26,182 nt of DNA from positions 1 through 26,182 of IMG/VR virus record IMGVR_UViG_3300048115_000419; one strand, 5' to 3'. The notes beneath the pieces are model-generated. The model had not been told where the DNA came from and made no database searches. It was given only the letters and a program-made list of their open reading frames with translations. This document shows, piece after piece, positions 538 to 26,182 of this stretch. The position numbers and the translations under genes are program-made. This DNA comes from a virus. Each line of letters begins with the position of its first letter. Position 1 is the stretch's first letter.

Positions 538-1320
538 CTATGAATATGAACCGCCATCAATAATAGCATTTACTGTCGCCAACTCATAGCCTGTAGTTGA
601 AGCAGCAGTGGCAGTATCTACTGTAGTTCCTGGTTCGTATGTTGGACCTTTCAATCCTTTATAAAAATTGAAATCACCATCACTCGCATCTCTAAAGAAA
701 CCAGTAAACATTACATCGGCTCCATCGCTATATTCGCCATAAACGCCAATATCAACAGCATCGCTAGAAGTATTTCCGTCGGCTAGTTTTAGTTGACTAT
801 CGTCAATAGTAACAGTTGACGAATTAACTGTAGTGGTGGTTCCGGAAACTGTTAGATCGCCCCCAACAGTGAGATTGCCTCTAAGGTTTGCGTTGCCAGT
901 TACGCCTAATGTTCCTGTTATTTCCGCATTACCGTGAACATTCGCAGCACCACGCAATGTAGTGTCTCCAGTTACTGCTAAATTTCCTACAACGTCAGCG
1001 TTGCCACGTAGAGTAGCATTACCAGTTACGCCTAATGTTCCCGACACCTCAACATTACCGCTGCCGTTTCCGAGAGCAACATTACCATTAGTAACTGTAA
1101 AATTAGTATTATCAAAAGAAGCGATGCCTTTTACTGCGTCAGTAGCATCTTGACCGCCAAGAGCAATCGAAGTAGTTCCCGTGGTTCCTGAAACGCCCTT
1201 ACCAGCATACAAAACTCCAGTTTGTAGATTTACAGCTAATTCACCAACTGATAATGAATTTTCTGCTGGTGCGTTATTATTAGACGTATTTCTTTTTATT
1301 AGGATTTTTGAGTCAGCCAT
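538..1320 (-). CDS. Tail fibre/adhesin-like protein, Mtd-like N-terminus plus hexapeptide array
   Basis: A 260-residue protein, probably a short fibre or fibre accessory on the baseplate. Residues 1-45 form an Mtd-like N-terminal module (IKRN...P...VGELAVNLQTGVLY). Residues about 55-85 match a module also found twice in the 1466-residue fibre (KGIASF...F.V..G.VAL). Residues 88-159 are 12 consecutive hexads of the form G-x-x-x-V/L-x ([18 protein letters not shown] and so on), expected to make a beta-helical shaft. The C-terminal 100 residues (GVYGEYSDGADVMFTGFFRD...) look like a small globular tip. Part of the hexad array is near-identical in DNA to the large fibre gene. It starts 18 bases after the preceding gene; a GGGAATG stretch serves as ribosome site and a late-promoter match lies 66 bases upstream. 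No S74 chaperone domain is present. Confidence 0.75.
   Translation of the reverse strand: MADSKILIKRNTSNNNAPAENSLSVGELAVNLQTGVLYAGKGVSGTTGTTSIALGGQDATDAVKGIASFDNTNFTVTNGNVALGNGSGNVEVSGTLGVTGNATLRGNADVVGNLAVTGDTTLRGAANVHGNAEITGTLGVTGNANLRGNLTVGGDLTVSGTTTTVNSSTVTIDDSQLKLADGNTSSDAVDIGVYGEYSDGADVMFTGFFRDASDGDFNFYKGLKGPTYEPGTTVDTATAASTTGYELATVNAIIDGGSYS
844..1059 (-). repeat. 12-unit hexapeptide (18-bp) array in the 260-residue fibre
   Basis: Read on the - strand, the segment encodes 12 hexads in perfect phase, from GNVEVS to GDLTVS, with glycine at every sixth position and alternating small and hydrophobic residues. The part around 946-1036 is almost the same as 6092-6182 in the large fibre gene, with about six differences in 90 bases. 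Confidence 0.85.
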
Positions 1321-1338: not shown

Positions 1339-1650
1339 TTATTTTTTAAACGCACTCGTTCTTCGTGGCATTATTATCTTATCCTTATTTATAACAACAG
1401 ACTCGTCGAGCTCTAATAATGCTTTCTCGTAGTAATCGATTAATTTGTCTTTGTACAATATATTTCTTTCTAGGTCCACTATCTGAGAAATAATAGTGTG
1501 TGGTAGAGGAATATTTTCTGTCAGTTCTCTTTCGCCTATGATAGCCTCTGTTAACATAACAATCTTAGTCCTAAGGGCAGAAATTGTCTTTTCTAACTCA
1601 ATTACTCTATCATCTGATTGTTCACTTTGAGGAATTATATTATCAGTCAC
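1339..1650 (-). CDS. Small coiled-coil protein of unknown function in the fibre cluster
   Basis: A 103-residue protein starting with GTG directly after the TAG stop of the preceding gene, which suggests translational coupling. It is charged and helical: residues 14-50 (RVIELEKTISALRTKIVMLT...) and 58-88 (DLERNILYKDKLIDYYEKAL) show heptad-like hydrophobic spacing, with a basic tail (MPRRTSAFKK). There is no signal peptide or membrane segment. I do not recognise the family. Lying between two fibre genes, it could be a fibre-assembly chaperone of the type played in T4 by small helical proteins, or a minor structural linker; both are guesses from context. It is probably expressed, since it is in frame with the tight gene ladder. 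Confidence 0.6.
   Translation of the reverse strand: MTDNIIPQSEQSDDRVIELEKTISALRTKIVMLTEAIIGERELTENIPLPHTIISQIVDLERNILYKDKLIDYYEKALLELDESVVINKDKIIMPRRTSAFKK
1386..1393 (-). promoter_or_regulatory. Putative late promoter (TATAAATA) for the 260-residue fibre gene
   Basis: An exact match to the T4-type late octamer on the - strand, 66 bases upstream of the start at 1320. It lies inside the end of the upstream coding region, so coding use could explain it by chance. Orientation and distance fit a promoter for the fibre gene. Confidence 0.4.
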
Positions 1651-2789: not shown

Positions 2790-5700
2790 TTACTCCTTTA
2801 ACTCCTCAATCATCGCCCTCAGTTCGTCGTTCTCTGCTTTGAGATCTTTAATCGCTTCAATGAATAAGGCTGATAACTGATTATATTCTACAGTTTTATA
2901 TTCTTGACCATCAAGCTCTGGATCTAAAGAACTATTCTTAGTTGAAACAGCTGAAGGTAGCACCTTCTCGACTTGCTGAGCAATCACGCCAGCAGATTTC
3001 TTTCCATCTTTCTTGTACTTAAATTGTACACCATCAATCTGAGATAATAACTCAAGAGCATTTTGTACTGGCTGTATATCTTCTTTCAAATTCTCATCAG
3101 ATAAGGTGTTTGAGAACGCAATAAGATCTTTAAAAACATGGAAATCGCCATCATCTTGCAGCCTAGCCCTTTCAGAATTACCAGCGTAAAAGCGCATACC
3201 AACATACTGCTGGTTTGCTGGTTCACCATCAAAGAAAATATAATCATGAGAATTACCAGTGTATACATTATCAGTCTCAGCGGTCGATCTTCGGTCTAAT
3301 GCCAAACCAATATGAAGGTTATTAATTTGTCCGTTTGCTGAATTAGTGATGGAGATTCCTGTAGAATCATCAATATAGAAATCACCAGTAGAGTAACCTA
3401 TACCACCGCCACCGATTTGTGTTTCGTTAGCTGTAAACGTAACCTTATTTGAGTTTGCATCAAAAGTAACGGTGGCATCACCGCCAGGAGCAAACCTGAT
3501 CTGCGGGTTAGCTACATATATTGGGCTGGAAGTAGTGCCACTATTACCCCAAGACCCAACCTTAAATTGTTCAGTGCCGTTATTAGTTGCAACACTAAAT
3601 GGCAACATATATCTACCATCTAAGTCTTGAGAGAGCTCTGTTGAGTCGAAATTGTTTCCTAAATTTAATACACCGCTTCCAACACTAAAGGATGTTTCAT
3701 CTATAAACTTAGCTTGTAAATTATTACCACTAATTTGGATTCCGTTAGCAGCTGCAGCTTGAAGATATTTGTGACCCGTCTCGCTGTGGTCAAAGAATAC
3801 AATTCTATCAGCGCCTGGAGATGCGGGCAAGTCGAGCAAACCAGTAGCCCCAGCCGAACCTGTAGAACCTCTGCTACCTGTAGAACCTGTAGAACCTCGA
3901 TTACCTGTAGAACCTGTAGAACCTCTGCTACCTGTAGAACCTCTGCTACCTGTAGAACCTGTAGAACCTCGATTACCTGTAGAACCTGTAGAACCTCTGC
4001 TACCTGTAGAACCTGTAGCGCCAACAGAACCTGTAGTACCTGTAGCCCCAGCCGAACCTGTAGTACCTGTAGTCCCAGCCGAACCTGTAGAACCTGTAGA
4101 ACCTCGATTACCTGTAGTACCTGTAGTCCCAGCCGAACCTGTAGAACCTGTAGAACCTCTGCTACCTGTAGAACCTCGATCGCCCTGTAAAGCAGCATTA
4201 GAAATGGTCACTTTCTTTAACTGACCATCAGTTCCATTAGCATCAGCTACTAGTAAGAAATCATCACCGCTAGGAGAACCTAGTGTTGCACGATCAGAAA
4301 TACTATAATCGTGTGCATTAAGCAAATTGACGAACTGCCCAGTTCCACTTGTTACGCCCTGCAACCCTACTTTCCATTTATCAGTATTTTCGTCCCAAGT
4401 AAACTTTGCATTAGGCTGAGCGCCACGATCAACTTCTAACCCAGCGTTTTCAGTTGGCGTTGCCGTTGCCCCGATATCGCCATTCAGCGTAATAATATTA
4501 TCGCCAACACTCAATTGATTGGTGTCAATTGTAGTGGTTGTTCCATTTACTGTCAAATTACCAGCGATAACTACATTATCAGGCAGACCAACAGTAACAG
4601 TACCATCTGTTCGACCAACTTCAATCTCACCAGACGTTCCTGTAACTCCAAGAACAGCACCACTAGATGCGTCTTTCAGAGTAACAGCGCCAGAACTGAC
4701 ATCGAAATCGCCACTGTTGAATGAAGCCAACCCTGTAGCTGATGTAGTTGCTGCTGGTATCGTTACTGATTCAGCTGAAGTCACAACACCCTTGTTGTTT
4801 ATTGTTAATTTAGAATATGACTTACCGCTAGTCGCCCCATATGTCCCAGCAGTCGCCCCACTATTCCCTAAATATGAGTTTGGTATTTTACCAGCCCATG
4901 TAGCAGTATTGTTTATAGTGGTTGGGTTCAATTTACCCGAAGAATCAAAAAGAGTATGAGACGTATGATCTATCGATGAATTGATCTCAGCGTTTATAAC
5001 TAATGTATCCAGATTATCTTGGTCGCCAAGAGTTATTGAACCGCCATTATCGGCTTTAATCGTGGCTTGCCCATCAACAACTAAATCCCCAGTAACCGTT
5101 AGTGTTGTGAAGTTTCCTGAATCACTAGTCACTACCCCGCCAGGAATGGTAACATTATCTTTGAATTCCGTATTAGCCCAAACTTTAAGATTACTGATTC
5201 CTCCATTTAGCCACATAGCTCTTCTTACTGAATCGTCAGTAACTCCCGAAGCCCCAACGCTACCTATCGTAAGAACAGCGCCATTGGCATACAACGACCC
5301 ATGAGCATTTAATGATCCTGTTACATTGATATTTCCCGAAACGCCAAGATTACCATTAACTGTACCATCACCAGAAATAGTGACATCATCAGGTAATCCA
5401 ACAGTAACAGTACCGTTTGATCGACCAACTTCAACCTCATTAGTTGTTCCTGCCACGGAAAGTACTGCGCCTGTAGACGCATCCGCTAATCCGATCGATC
5501 CTGAACTATTAGTAAATTGAGATGAAGGGAATTTAGCAACACCCTTAACATTATTAGTGGCATCCTTAGCTGAAAACGCTATTGTCCCAGTTGTTCCTGT
5601 ACCCCCAGTAAATCCTATTTCCAAACCATTAGTCGCAGTAAAGGTATAGTCGTTGCCGAGATCTGCAATAATATTCGAACCACTAACGCCAGATCCAGAA

Positions 5701-7190
5701 ATAAACTTAATATCATGGTTCGCTAATTTTGCGTTTGTTATGGTTGCATCAGTGACCGCATTAGTAACATTCAACTTACCAGCATCAGTAAATATTTCTG
5801 TACCATTATAAGTAATTTTATTTTCAAAATCTACTTTATCTACCCAAAGTTTATCCCATCGACTAGAATCGCCACCGCCTAGAGTTCTATTTCCGCTCGG
5901 CAAAATGTTAGAATCAACTTTAGCAGTTAGCGTCAATGTATCTGTGCCAGTAGTACCGATATTGGCGCTGCCTTTAGCGTCAAGCAAGCCTTGGAAAGTA
6001 GCAGTACCAGTTACTCCCAGAGTTCCTTTTATGGTTGCGTTCCCAGTAACATTAGCATTACCGCTTACGCCTAGATTTCCATGAACATTTGCAGCACCAC
6101 GCAACGTAGCGTCTCCAGTTACTGCTAAAGTTCCTACAACGTCAGCGTTGCCACGTAGAGTAGCATTACCAGTTACGCCCAGAGTTCCATTGACTGTAGC
6201 ATTCCCAGTAACATTAGCATTACCGCTTACGCCTAGATTTCCATGAACATTTGCAGCACCACGCAACGTAGCGTCTCCAGTTACTCCCAGAGTTCCTTTT
6301 ATGGTTGCGTTACCAGTAACATTAGCGTTGCCACTTACGCCCAGATTCCCATGAACATTAGCAGCACCACGCAAAGTAGCAGTACCAGTTACTCCCAGAG
6401 TTCCAGCAAAATCTGCGTTTCCGTTTGAATCTATAGTAGCGACAATAGCCTCAGAAGAATCCGCTATAACAAGAGCAGATTTACCGCTGGCGTCGACTAG
6501 TTTTAAATATAAATCTGATTTACCCTGATCAGAACCGCCACCAGTTGTCCCAAGATTACCTGCGAGGAACACCTCGATGACATCATTATTAGCATTACCG
6601 CCAGAGAAAATTAAATGCGGAGACTCTCCACGACTGGCAGTAGTTCCAAATGTTCCAGTGAAGCTAGTATTACCGCCTGCCAAAACTAAATGGTCATGAT
6701 CAAGTTTTAAATCAGTTAAATCTCTTATCGTTAGTTTTCTAGTATCTAGAACGTCATTTCCGCTATCGCCATTGATGTATAAGAAATCACCACCTTGGGT
6801 TCCCCCAACCCTAATGCGGTCCACAGAAGGTAGGTGTAAAGTATCTTGACCAGTGACATTGAAATTAACATTAGCTGTGAATGTCGCATCAGAATCTACA
6901 GTAAAATCAGAAACTGTAGAATCGATGGTGGTATTAGACATTATTGTTATCCCGCCAGAGATACCAGTTGTCCCGAGATGCCCACCAACTATAGTTGGCG
7001 TTCTTAATGTTACTGCTGAGAAATTTCCATGAACATGTCCATCTCCTATGGCTTCACCGCCACGAGCAGTATCCCCTGTACCAGAAACAGTAACAACATT
7101 ATTACTGATTATAGTAGCAACGAGGTTGGTATTAAGTCTCCAAGTGTCGAAACTATTATTAAGTTCGGTATTTGCAACAGTTACTGTCAT
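2790..7190 (-). CDS. Large tail fibre: hexapeptide shaft, collagen-like rod, C-terminal S74 chaperone
   Basis: A 1466-residue fibre, probably trimeric and involved in host recognition. Order: residues 1-260 beta-rich and Asn/Gly-rich; 263-412 form 25 perfect hexads (G-x-x-x-V/L-x); about 545-610 and 815-880 are two copies of a module containing GTVTVGLPD; 1003-1117 are 38 Gly-X-Y triplets without proline; then a beta domain; 1364-1466 is a peptidase S74 intramolecular chaperone. The chaperone has SDENLK with the Ser-Lys pair five residues apart that serves self-cleavage in endosialidase-type fibres, then [27 protein letters not shown] and a terminal coiled coil. Cleavage before Ser1364 would release about 103 residues. 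Start chosen at the first ATG after a weak AGAGAT; AATAAATA lies 34 bases upstream. Confidence 0.92.
2793..2798 (-). promoter_or_regulatory. Ribosome-binding site AAGGAG for the 130-residue protein
   Basis: The best Shine-Dalgarno match in the fibre cluster, six bases from the ATG at 2786 and adjoining the TAA stop of the 1466-residue fibre. It suggests strong, independent translation of the small protein. Confidence 0.75.
3099..3101 (-). other. Predicted S74 self-cleavage serine (Ser1364) of the large fibre
   Basis: The TCT codon of the SDENLK motif. Family knowledge: trimeric S74 domains cleave themselves at this serine, using a lysine five residues on. Here both residues are present, so cleavage is expected. 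Confidence 0.7.
3840..4184 (-). repeat. Collagen-like Gly-X-Y region, 38 triplets, built on 9-bp DNA units
   Basis: The segment encodes 115 residues of uninterrupted Gly-X-Y ([18 protein letters not shown]) with no proline and Thr or Arg dominant at Y. In DNA it is a tandem of 9-bp units close to acctgtaga/acctctgct. Because of the repeat, the opposite strand and other frames are also open, which is an artefact and not extra genes. Confidence 0.92.
5955..6404 (-). repeat. 25-unit hexapeptide array with 108-bp and 162-bp higher-order repeats
   Basis: 450 bases encode exactly 25 hexads. Six-hexad blocks (GTLGVT, Gx[22 protein letters not shown], GNATxx) occur at 6297-6404, 6189-6296 and 6027-6134 (the last opening with GTLAVT), with an extra three-hexad piece at 6135-6188. 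An 84-base stretch is identical at 6040-6123 and 6202-6285, 162 bases apart. Confidence 0.92.
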
Positions 7191-21082: not shown

Positions 21083-21090
21083 TATTTATA
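21083..21090 (-). promoter_or_regulatory. Late promoter (TATAAATA) upstream of the H1-like gene
   Basis: An exact T4-type late octamer on the - strand in the 84-base gap after the 147-residue gene. It should start transcription near 21077 and serve the H1-like gene, gp25, gp6 and genes beyond. It is non-coding, which makes it more credible than the copies inside genes. Confidence 0.7.
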
Positions 21091-21546: not shown

Positions 21547-22443
21547 CTATTGCGGTTTGCTCGTAGTACCAGCACCAAGCCCTGGAGTATCGCGATGAGT
21601 ATGACCTTTACCAGATATCCCTGCCGAAACATGATCAACAGATGCTGTAGACTTACCAGTAATGTCTAAATTACCAGTTAAATTAATATTTCCTGTCCAA
21701 TTAGTGGTTGGCGTATCAACTGTCGTTGTGCCAGCAACAGTCAAATCGGCATCGCCATCTACGAATACAGTTACATTACCCTTAACATGGAGGCTGTCGT
21801 TACTGGCGACTAGAGTATAATTATCCTTAACAATCTTTGTTACTTTATCACCATCAGGATACACTTCATACATTGTACCACTTCTATGGAACTCTTTGAT
21901 TCGTTCTGCGCCAGAAGTATCATCATATTCTTTATAATGCCCCGACTCAGTTTCCATAACATGGTTCATCGGATATACTGGCGCATATGTTGAAGGAGGA
22001 ATGCTAATCTTACCAGCATCTTCTTCCGTATCATCAGCAACTCCACGTGTCCTTTTGTTTACATCTGACTCGCCAGTATATTTTGGGTAAACACCATTTG
22101 GGTCGTTAAAACCGAGAGTTGTTTCCGCAGCCTGTGATGGAGCTCCAGTAAGAGTTCCAACTACAGCTGGCTCTTGCGCTCTTTCTCCATCCATGAAGAA
22201 CCCCACAACCCAAGTTCCTTCAACCATACCAGTTGGCGACTTACCTATTCCGCTAATTGATGCAGAGTCAATCCCGCTTAGTGGTATAGCCCATGGCAAA
22301 GCGTCTGTCGGTATTTTATCTTTATTATCGGTGTGATAACCGTATGCGCGAACACGCACACGACCAAGTTGCGCTGGGTCGTTTCGATCCTCAACTACAC
22401 CGAAGAACCAAGTAAATGACCCTCTACCGACAAACTCTCTCAT
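21547..22443 (-). CDS. gp5: Baseplate hub spike gp5, lysozyme-free, with HxH tip
   Basis: A 298-residue central spike protein. Residues 1-100 are the gp5/VgrG OB-fold (FFGVVEDRNDPAQLGRVRVR, WVVGFFMDGERAQEPAVVGT). A loop with NKRTRG and the region MNHVMETESGHYKEYDDTSG, typical of gp5/VgrG spikes, leads into a trimeric beta-helix at about 195-270. The tip is GHTHRDTPGLGAG, with His281 and His283 forming an HxH pair like the iron-binding tip of P2 gpV and phi92 gp138. T4 gp5 has 575 residues including a lysozyme domain; no such domain is present here. The gene follows the Lys-rich small gene by three bases, with only a weak purine-rich ribosome site. Confidence 0.92.
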   Translation of the reverse strand: MREFVGRGSFTWFFGVVEDRNDPAQLGRVRVRAYGYHTDNKDKIPTDALPWAIPLSGIDSASISGIGKSPTGMVEGTWVVGFFMDGERAQEPAVVGTLTGAPSQAAETTLGFNDPNGVYPKYTGESDVNKRTRGVADDTEEDAGKISIPPSTYAPVYPMNHVMETESGHYKEYDDTSGAERIKEFHRSGTMYEVYPDGDKVTKIVKDNYTLVASNDSLHVKGNVTVFVDGDADLTVAGTTTVDTPTTNWTGNINLTGNLDITGKSTASVDHVSAGISGKGHTHRDTPGLGAGTTSKPQ

Positions 22444-23983: not shown

Positions 23984-24591
23984 TAAACGCCATTCCTCAA
24001 TATATCTTCAACTTCATCTCTAACCTGAGACAAGTACCTTTTGTCTAATAATTTTATAGAACGCTTAGAATCATTCAATTCAACTTCATAATCAAATTTA
24101 CTTACTGCTGCCTTTCTAAAGTTGGAAGGAGTGGAATTATACTTCTGTTGATCAACAACCACAACCCTCTCGAGAAGGCTGGTGCCGTCATAAAGAATTT
24201 CTGCTTCTGCTGGAACCTTTACTCCATCCTTTATCCTCGAAAGAAATATCCTGTATTCATGTATCTCTGATTGAGCAGCTGAAACAGAACCATACTTTCC
24301 TACGATAAATTGCTCAAAATCATATGTTGATAGTGGCATATCAAAATTAGCATCCTTCTTGTTGGTAAAGTGCAACACAAGCCAAGCATACTTTGAATCA
24401 CCATAATATTTTTCAGCAATTGTGTCGGGTCTGTCTCCATCTTGTATATCATATTCATAATATACATCTGCACGGAAAGAAAGTTCGCTCGGTATCTTGA
24501 ACCTTCTCAATATATTTGTCAATTTTACTTTTTGACCAATATTCGTCAGGTCATGATCAATTTTTGGAAAGTATGAAAAATAATTTGACAC
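23983..24591 (-). CDS. gp53: Baseplate wedge protein gp53
   Basis: A 202-residue homologue of T4 gp53 (196 residues), which clamps neighbouring wedges around the hub. N-terminal YFSYFPKIDHDL and VKLTNILRRFKIPSEL are as in T4-like gp53. Residues 51-74 form the LysM-like core (DGDRPDTIAEKYYGDSKYAW, then LVL). FEQFIVGKYGS and the C-terminal KRSIKLLDKRYLSQVRDEVE complete the family pattern. The start is GTG, overlapping the stop of gp48 (TAGTG), so translation is probably coupled. Confidence 0.94.
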   Translation of the reverse strand: MSNYFSYFPKIDHDLTNIGQKVKLTNILRRFKIPSELSFRADVYYEYDIQDGDRPDTIAEKYYGDSKYAWLVLHFTNKKDANFDMPLSTYDFEQFIVGKYGSVSAAQSEIHEYRIFLSRIKDGVKVPAEAEILYDGTSLLERVVVVDQQKYNSTPSNFRKAAVSKFDYEVELNDSKRSIKLLDKRYLSQVRDEVEDILRNGV

Positions 24592-25703
24592 TATATACTA
24601 CCCTCTGGTTTGCTGTTGACTGGTTCTGGTAGCCCAGAATCTAAATCGCCACGTGTAATAATTTTCGTTTCCTGGAACGCTAACTGTATTTCAACCGACA
24701 CAGGCGCACCAGTATCTTGGAAAAATAGCGGTATGCCCTCACCGTTGTAGTTTACAGTCATGTTTTTAAGTACGCATGTCCCTATCTTGTATAAGTTTCC
24801 TGCGATGGCGTCAGCAAAAGTTATCTCAAACTCATCTGGGTATTTGAACGCAAGAGAACCAGCTGCATATTCTGGGTGCATATGATATTTGTATGCACCT
24901 ATTATTCTTTGTATTGCTATGGATTCATCAGCGTTTCTGGCAACAAACTTATACGAAAACTGATGTTCACGCATATCAACGCCTTTGAATAATACTGCCA
25001 TATGAGGATTTATCGCTAATCCTTCGTCGAGACCGACGCCTTGAGCAACCGCACTACCAGTGAAAGCACCACCTAATGCTGCGCCCGCAGAACCGCCTAC
25101 CTTACCTGCTGCAGCTGTAGCAACCACTGCAGCAATCGGAGCGCCAGCCTGCACCTGAGCATCCGTATCTCCCGACTTAAAAGCCCCAACAGTGGAACTT
25201 ATCCTTGATGAAATTAAGTCGGCTATATCATTCCCAGCAGCAGACAGTTGATCTCCTGATATTCTGCCTGCAGATGCTGCGCCAAGAGCTCCTATATCAG
25301 CGTTCTCATATTGCGCACCATAAGTTGTTTGTAGGTTACTAGGAACAGGCAATACTATATTTCTAATGGTTAAATCTTCAGCAGCTTCTTTCCTACTTTG
25401 ACGAATACGATTCTTAACTGTGAAAATCATATAATGTTCGTCGCTCAAATCAGCAGGGAACTGTAGCGGTTCTTTGACTTTGTTATTATTAAATAAATCC
25501 GCTAATGGTGAATTTACAAGATTGCCAATTTTAGTCTTTTCTAACAAAGCGTTGAAGTTAGCATTTATCGAGACGCCATTATCCCCAGCAGATATTGAGA
25601 AACCGCCTGTCCCGCCAGAGCCAAGAAAGTTCTCAAGATTGCCACTTGCTGAAGCGACAGTAGATTTGATTCCAGATGTTACTTGTTTCAGGTTTATTTT
25701 CAT
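24591..25703 (-). CDS. gp48: Baseplate tail-tube cap gp48
   Basis: A 370-residue protein (T4 gp48: 364), which with gp54 starts tail-tube growth on the hub. The conserved C-terminal half has NPHMAVLFKGVDMREHQFSY (residues 232-251), then ESIAIQRIIGAYKYHMHPEY (about 260-279), KYPDEFEITF and LKNMTVNYNGEG, the tube-like fold of gp48/gp54. Residues about 189-225 are an Ala/Gly-rich stretch (AAVVATAAAGKVGGSAGAAL) that looks like a glycine zipper. It could in principle be gp54, but length and order before gp53 favour gp48. First gene of the - strand cluster, with TATAAATA 35 bases upstream and a weak ribosome site. Confidence 0.88.
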   Translation of the reverse strand: MKINLKQVTSGIKSTVASASGNLENFLGSGGTGGFSISAGDNGVSINANFNALLEKTKIGNLVNSPLADLFNNNKVKEPLQFPADLSDEHYMIFTVKNRIRQSRKEAAEDLTIRNIVLPVPSNLQTTYGAQYENADIGALGAASAGRISGDQLSAAGNDIADLISSRISSTVGAFKSGDTDAQVQAGAPIAAVVATAAAGKVGGSAGAALGGAFTGSAVAQGVGLDEGLAINPHMAVLFKGVDMREHQFSYKFVARNADESIAIQRIIGAYKYHMHPEYAAGSLAFKYPDEFEITFADAIAGNLYKIGTCVLKNMTVNYNGEGIPLFFQDTGAPVSVEIQLAFQETKIITRGDLDSGLPEPVNSKPEGSI

Positions 25704-25715
25704 TGAAAGAGCCTG

Positions 25716-25723
25716 TATAAATA
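25716..25723 (+). promoter_or_regulatory. Late promoter (TATAAATA) for gp4
   Basis: An exact match on the + strand, 31 bases before the gp4 ATG. It should start transcription near 25729. It lies within the expected leader of the gp48 transcript. Confidence 0.72.
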
Positions 25724-25737
25724 TGCGTTGACGTATC

Positions 25738-25745
25738 TATTTATA
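25738..25745 (-). promoter_or_regulatory. Late promoter (TATAAATA) for gp48 and the baseplate cluster
   Basis: An exact match on the - strand, 35 bases before the gp48 ATG, with an expected start near 25732. It lies within the expected leader of the gp4 transcript on the other strand. Confidence 0.75.
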
Positions 25746-25753
25746 AGCAGATT

Positions 25754-26182
25754 ATGGCGCAATTTTATAAAGGAAAATATCAATGTAAGTTCCCTGAGAA
25801 ATATAAGGGAGATCCGTCAGATATTATTTATCGTTCCAGCTGGGAACTAAACTGCATGTCATACTTTGACAAGAACCCAGATATCCTTTGGTGGGCATCA
25901 GAACCCTTTCCGATAGGTTATCGCTCACCAATCGACGGCAAGAAGCACCGTTACTTTGTTGACTTTGTAATCAAAACAAAAAATAATGAAACGATTATGA
26001 TTGAAGTCAAACCACATCGCCAAACTCGTGAACCCAAACCGCAGAAACGACTCACAAAAAAGTACCTGAATGAAGTGAGGACTTGGGGAGTGAATCAAGC
26101 TAAATGGGAAGCAGCGATAGATTACTGTAAAGGTCGTGGTTGGAAGTTCCAAATACTTACAGAAAAAGAGCTGTACAAAAAG
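25754..26182 (+). CDS. gp4: Head completion protein gp4 (3' end outside window)
   Basis: 143 codons are open to the right edge with no stop; T4 gp4 has 150 residues, so only a few codons are missing. Matches by eye to T4 gp4: KYKGDPSDIIYRSSWELNCM (T4: KYRGDPKKITYRSNWE), YFDKNPDILWWASEPFPIGY, DGKKHRYFVDFVIK (T4: EGKKRRYFMDIWMK), IEVKPHRQT (T4: IEIKPKKET), KKYLNEVRTWGVNQAKWEAA and KGRGWKFQILTE. The E...D..(I)EVK arrangement is that of restriction-nuclease-like folds. The protein acts at the end of head filling, before tail joining. The ATG has only a weak AAGCAG ahead. It is the sole + strand gene. Confidence 0.95.
   Translation, partial: MAQFYKGKYQCKFPEKYKGDPSDIIYRSSWELNCMSYFDKNPDILWWASEPFPIGYRSPIDGKKHRYFVDFVIKTKNNETIMIEVKPHRQTREPKPQKRLTKKYLNEVRTWGVNQAKWEAAIDYCKGRGWKFQILTEKELYKK

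Follow-up and report, generated by a model that had tools for sequence, protein, structure and literature searches.

The window analyzed here, a 26,182-base fragment of a virus genome (IMG/VR record IMGVR_UViG_3300048115_000419), contains two exact copies of the octamer TATAAATA which face each other in the gap between the divergent genes gp48 and gp4. As judged from the sequence, the two octamers very probably function as T4-type late promoters, that on the + strand for gp4 and that on the - strand for the operon of gp48 and the baseplate genes, as originally predicted. This assignment is based on their position, their deep conservation, the presence of genes for gp55, gp33 and gp45 in two relatives, and the same layout in T4. 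It is likely that the two promoters work independently, that they are compactly packed at a strand-switch point and inherited from a T4-type ancestor, and that they do not form a switch. In this way, the family of T4 late promoters gains an uncultured marine lineage, and the facing pair next to gene 4 turns out to be common to T4, cyanophages and rhizobial phages. In a small search of open-access papers, we found no published account of facing T4 late promoters. Since T4 carries the same pair, promoter interference is measurable in a classical laboratory system.

Octamers and genes at the gp48/gp4 gap

The positions of the features are collected in Table 1. The sequence of the gap (25704-25753) is TGAAAGAGCCTGTATAAATATGCGTTGACGTATCTATTTATAAGCAGATT, and direct reading confirmed the two exact octamers, one on each strand, that had been reported in it. 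They are separated by 14 nt. The ATG of gp4 is located 30 nt downstream of the + octamer, and the ATG of gp48 is located 34 nt downstream of the - octamer. The late promoter of T4 is TATAAATA at positions -13 to -6 (PMC1524935), with no -35 element and no need for an upstream element (PMC2988020). The late element of phage S-PM2 is NATAAATA (PMC2984593), and that of Aeh1 is CTAAATA (PMC1524935). Applied to the window, the T4 rule places the expected RNA starts at 25729 (+) and 25732 (-), in agreement with the original prediction. Both octamers lie just 5′ of virion genes in the correct orientation, and together they form a pair of facing late promoters upstream of gp4 like those in T4 and Syn9. 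The earlier description was correct in that each promoter fires across the opposite element. It was wrong in calling the promoters back-to-back, as the elements are convergent and stand face-to-face.

Table 1. Positions of the gp48/gp4 gap, its flanking genes and the exact octamers in the window.
Feature	Position	Strand	Remarks
Gap between divergent ATG starts of gp48 (-) and gp4 (+)	25704..25753		50 nt; strand-switch point
TATAAATA octamer, -10-type element of the putative gp4 late promoter	25716..25723	+	exact match
TATAAATA octamer, -10-type element of the putative gp48/baseplate operon late promoter	25738..25745	-	TATTTATA on the + strand
gp4-like head closure/completion protein	25754..26182	+	PHROG phrog_218, E=5e-58; runs off the fragment end
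gp48-like baseplate tail tube cap	24591..25703	-	PHROG phrog_230, E=3e-58; leads the - strand baseplate operon
Predicted gp4 leader, 25 nt	25729..25753	+	start by the T4 -13/-6 rule; opposing octamer inside as UAUUUAUA
Predicted gp48 leader, 29 nt	25704..25732	-	start by the T4 -13/-6 rule; opposing octamer inside as UAUUUAUA
Third exact TATAAATA	21083..21090	-	intergenic; 54 nt before a co-oriented ORF start
Fourth exact TATAAATA	1386..1393	-	within the end of ORF 1339-1650; 65 nt before ORF 538-1320

The number of octamers in the window is by itself ordinary: four were seen against 2.5 expected, and 23 of 100 shuffles reached four. Their placement differs from expectation. Each of the four is followed within 80 nt by the start of a co-oriented ORF, against 0.1 expected, and several control octamers were placed near expectation; TATTTATA cannot serve as an independent control, since it is the motif in reverse complement. 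The third copy precedes the gp25/gp6/gp7 block and is probably a late promoter. The same placement was observed in two large relatives, G001 (133 kb) and G002 (110 kb), in which 12 of 18 and 13 of 21 copies, respectively, precede a co-oriented ORF by no more than 80 nt (0.9 expected), including one copy in front of gp23. In each of these two genomes, the exact facing pair occurs once, at the gp4/gp48 gap. Both genomes encode relatives of gp55, gp33 and gp45, on which the pair in the window presumably depends. The window contains none of the three, and their presence cannot be expected in a record of only 26,182 bases. In G001 and G002, gp4 is the first of six ORFs that make up a short + strand cluster in a genome that is mostly on the - strand, and the gp4/gp48 gap is therefore a strand-switch point.

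Conservation of the facing pair

No phage record matched the gap region in a near-identity search, so conservation was tested at protein-anchored loci. The set consisted of 156 loci with divergent gp4/gp48-type pairs, cultured records included, most of them from IMG/VR scans with gp48 and with Syn9 gp48 and gp4; with gp48 of phage OC as the query, no relatives were found in IMG/VR. Among close relatives, defined by a gp4 at least 80% identical, 27 distinct gap sequences were obtained. Both octamers are invariant in all 27, while the flanks and the sequence and length of the spacer vary. Two N[AC]TAAATA elements facing each other were detected in 33 of 50 gap-sequence clusters, as opposed to 0.06 in shuffles, and an outward pair in none of the 50; these counts depend on a relaxed regular expression and on start codons assigned automatically. 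The value of 33 is conservative because about a dozen loci (L025 and its identical copies), in which the choice of start misplaced gp4, were missed although both octamers are present on inspection.

The conservation of both octamers that had been proposed as a check of the pair was thus found in the close gaps, but it does not extend to several divergent lineages, where one octamer is lost. The spacing is not kept. With the genes still divergent, a single element is found in the distant relatives L038-L040, L059, L050 and L129, usually that of gp48, and in Ackermannviridae. One element may also be degenerate to CTAAATA independently of the other. The spacing between facing octamers is 7 nt in T4 and 10-25 nt in other relatives, with no evident periodicity of the kind expected from helical phasing in the 10-25 nt spread, as judged by eye. 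In the 12-nt gaps of the L032 type, only a CTAAATA-type gp4 element lies inside the gap, and no gp48 promoter was located. At L022, with a gap of 13 nt, the pair of late elements seems to form a palindromic overlap at the 3′ end before gp48 (AATAAATATTTATA).

The single elements of distant relatives could suggest that only one of the two octamers in the window is an active promoter and that the other is an AT-rich coincidence. We regard this as very improbable, since both octamers are exact in every close gap while adjoining bases change, and dinucleotide shuffling of the 50-nt gap yielded both in only 1 of 10,000 cases (frequency 0.0001).

Instead of promoters, the two octamers could also represent a protein-binding site or an RNA or DNA hairpin of which each forms one arm, as TATAAATA and TATTTATA make an exact inverted repeat with a 14-nt spacer. 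However, the distance between the arms drifts from 7 to 25 nt, one arm is lost or degenerates independently, and single octamers are found elsewhere upstream of co-oriented genes. Moreover, each predicted transcript begins downstream of its own octamer and would carry a single arm, and the leaders have no stable or unusual fold (z = +1.7 and +1.0). The hairpin was rejected on the basis of the fold and the drifting spacing, and the whole reading is highly unlikely.

In a sample of cultured phages, hand-picked from a spread list, the facing layout beside gp4 was found in Syn9, Ochrobactrum phage OC, Sinorhizobium phage phiM12, T4, JS10 and Acinetobacter phage DLP2. The gene 4/gene 53 gap of T4 (NC_000866) resembles the window in that gp4 is divergent from a baseplate gene and two exact copies of TATAAATA face each other. 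It differs in the partner gene (53 instead of gp48), the length of the gap (47 nt instead of 50 nt) and the distance between the octamers (7 nt instead of 14 nt). In addition, the T4 leaders carry Shine-Dalgarno sequences, whereas the predicted leaders of the window show none. Syn9 has the same two genes and the same facing layout as the window, but its gap is 37 nt long and its elements are degenerate (NATAAATA and CTAAATA), one of them overlapping the gp4 start codon. By the regular expression, one element only was detected in Klebsiella phage May and Salmonella phage Maynard (Ackermannviridae), in Citrobacter phage CfP1 and in S-CAM1. In Vibrio phages R10Z (L192, 67-nt gap) and EniLVp02 (L203, 150-nt gap), an outward pair, mostly of the CTAAATA type, is located beside gp4.

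Bacterial bidirectional promoters with overlapping -10 elements have two opposite starts close together and fire outwards from the shared -10. The elements of the window are separate and facing, 14 nt apart, and this class was rejected for them.

T4 has a second divergent gap with a facing late-type pair, the 49-nt gap between inh and segE (NC_000866, 112008-112056; L190). The genes on its two sides are unrelated to gp4 and gp48, and no such case was seen in the window. The inh/segE pair adjoins a homing endonuclease gene, as in Yersinia phage TG1 (L196, 251-1001), where an HNH homing endonuclease gene is inserted between gp4 and the facing pair. The TG1 pair (AATAAATA and TATTTATT) is now located between gp53 and the endonuclease gene, and the latter may have taken over the promoter of gp4.

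Probable compact packing and the proposed switch

In the likely scheme of two independent promoters, each octamer would be read by the host RNA polymerase together with the phage sigma factor gp55, the co-activator gp33 and the sliding clamp gp45. The + octamer would give the gp4 transcript from about 25729, and the - octamer the transcript of gp48 and the downstream baseplate genes from about 25732. Owing to the facing arrangement, each predicted start would lie across the opposite octamer, and each leader would contain it as UAUUUAUA. With each octamer set near the start codon of the other gene, both mRNAs would keep a leader of 20-30 nt even in a gap of only about 50 nt. Such a crossed layout is possible because late promoters need only the octamer and no -35 element. 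The facing layout was probably inherited, together with the strand switch at gp4, from the ancestor of T4-type phages. Simultaneous occupancy of the gap by two polymerases would hardly be possible, and this would be a by-product that costs some initiation on a single DNA copy.

We infer that packing is the reason for the layout and that it has no regulatory role. Facing pairs are associated with gaps of about 35-65 nt, and outward pairs with the longer gaps (67 and 150 nt) of the two Vibrio phages, the only two long-gap cases for the packing argument. Independence of the promoters is favoured by the spacing of 7-25 nt, which obeys no rule, and by the losses of single elements. The persistence of the facing layout across families could nevertheless reflect selection for the pair on grounds other than space.

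The original prediction went further and proposed that the two promoters exclude each other and thereby tie head completion to baseplate expression in one switch. We found this claim unsupported. In a regulatory form of it, steric exclusion between the two late promoters would make the choice of promoter set the ratio of gp4 to baseplate products, and this choice might be governed by how the gp45 clamp is oriented, which varies with the strand that is nicked. The geometry permits this. A polymerase footprint would be expected to span both sites, and with a melted region of -12 to +2 at T4 late promoters (PMC7892883), the predicted melted regions of the pair (25717-25730 and 25731-25744) abut exactly at 25730/25731. 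The facing layout is also kept across families. However, the drifting spacing lends no support to a switch: the melted regions overlap at 7 nt in T4 and are apart elsewhere, at distances of up to 25 nt, so there is no selection for one fixed geometry. Many lineages have lost one element, and in the two Vibrio phages with longer gaps the layout is outward. Furthermore, exclusion on one DNA copy would produce alternatives and not coupling of gp4 with the baseplate genes, and late timing through gp55 is already common to both. In T4, many genome copies are present late in infection, and exclusion would be averaged out among them. A switch of this kind is unlikely. Its narrower version, in which the facing pair is selected as a unit and the orientation of the gp45 clamp, reflecting the state of replication, picks one exclusive promoter and so balances gp4 against baseplate products, is quite unlikely.

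Other features of the window

The rest of the - strand of the window encodes relatives of gp53, gp5, gp25, gp6, gp7 and gp8, as well as tail fibre-like proteins. One tail fibre-like protein (2790-7190) contains a repetitive collagen-like stretch at 3701-4198, which is open in overlapping frames on both strands. Repeats of one type are common to this protein and to the product of ORF 538-1320 (-), which suggests duplicated fibre modules. The gp5-like baseplate hub protein (21547-22443, -) is only 298 aa long, a short length which suggests that the lysozyme domain found in T4 gp5 may be missing.
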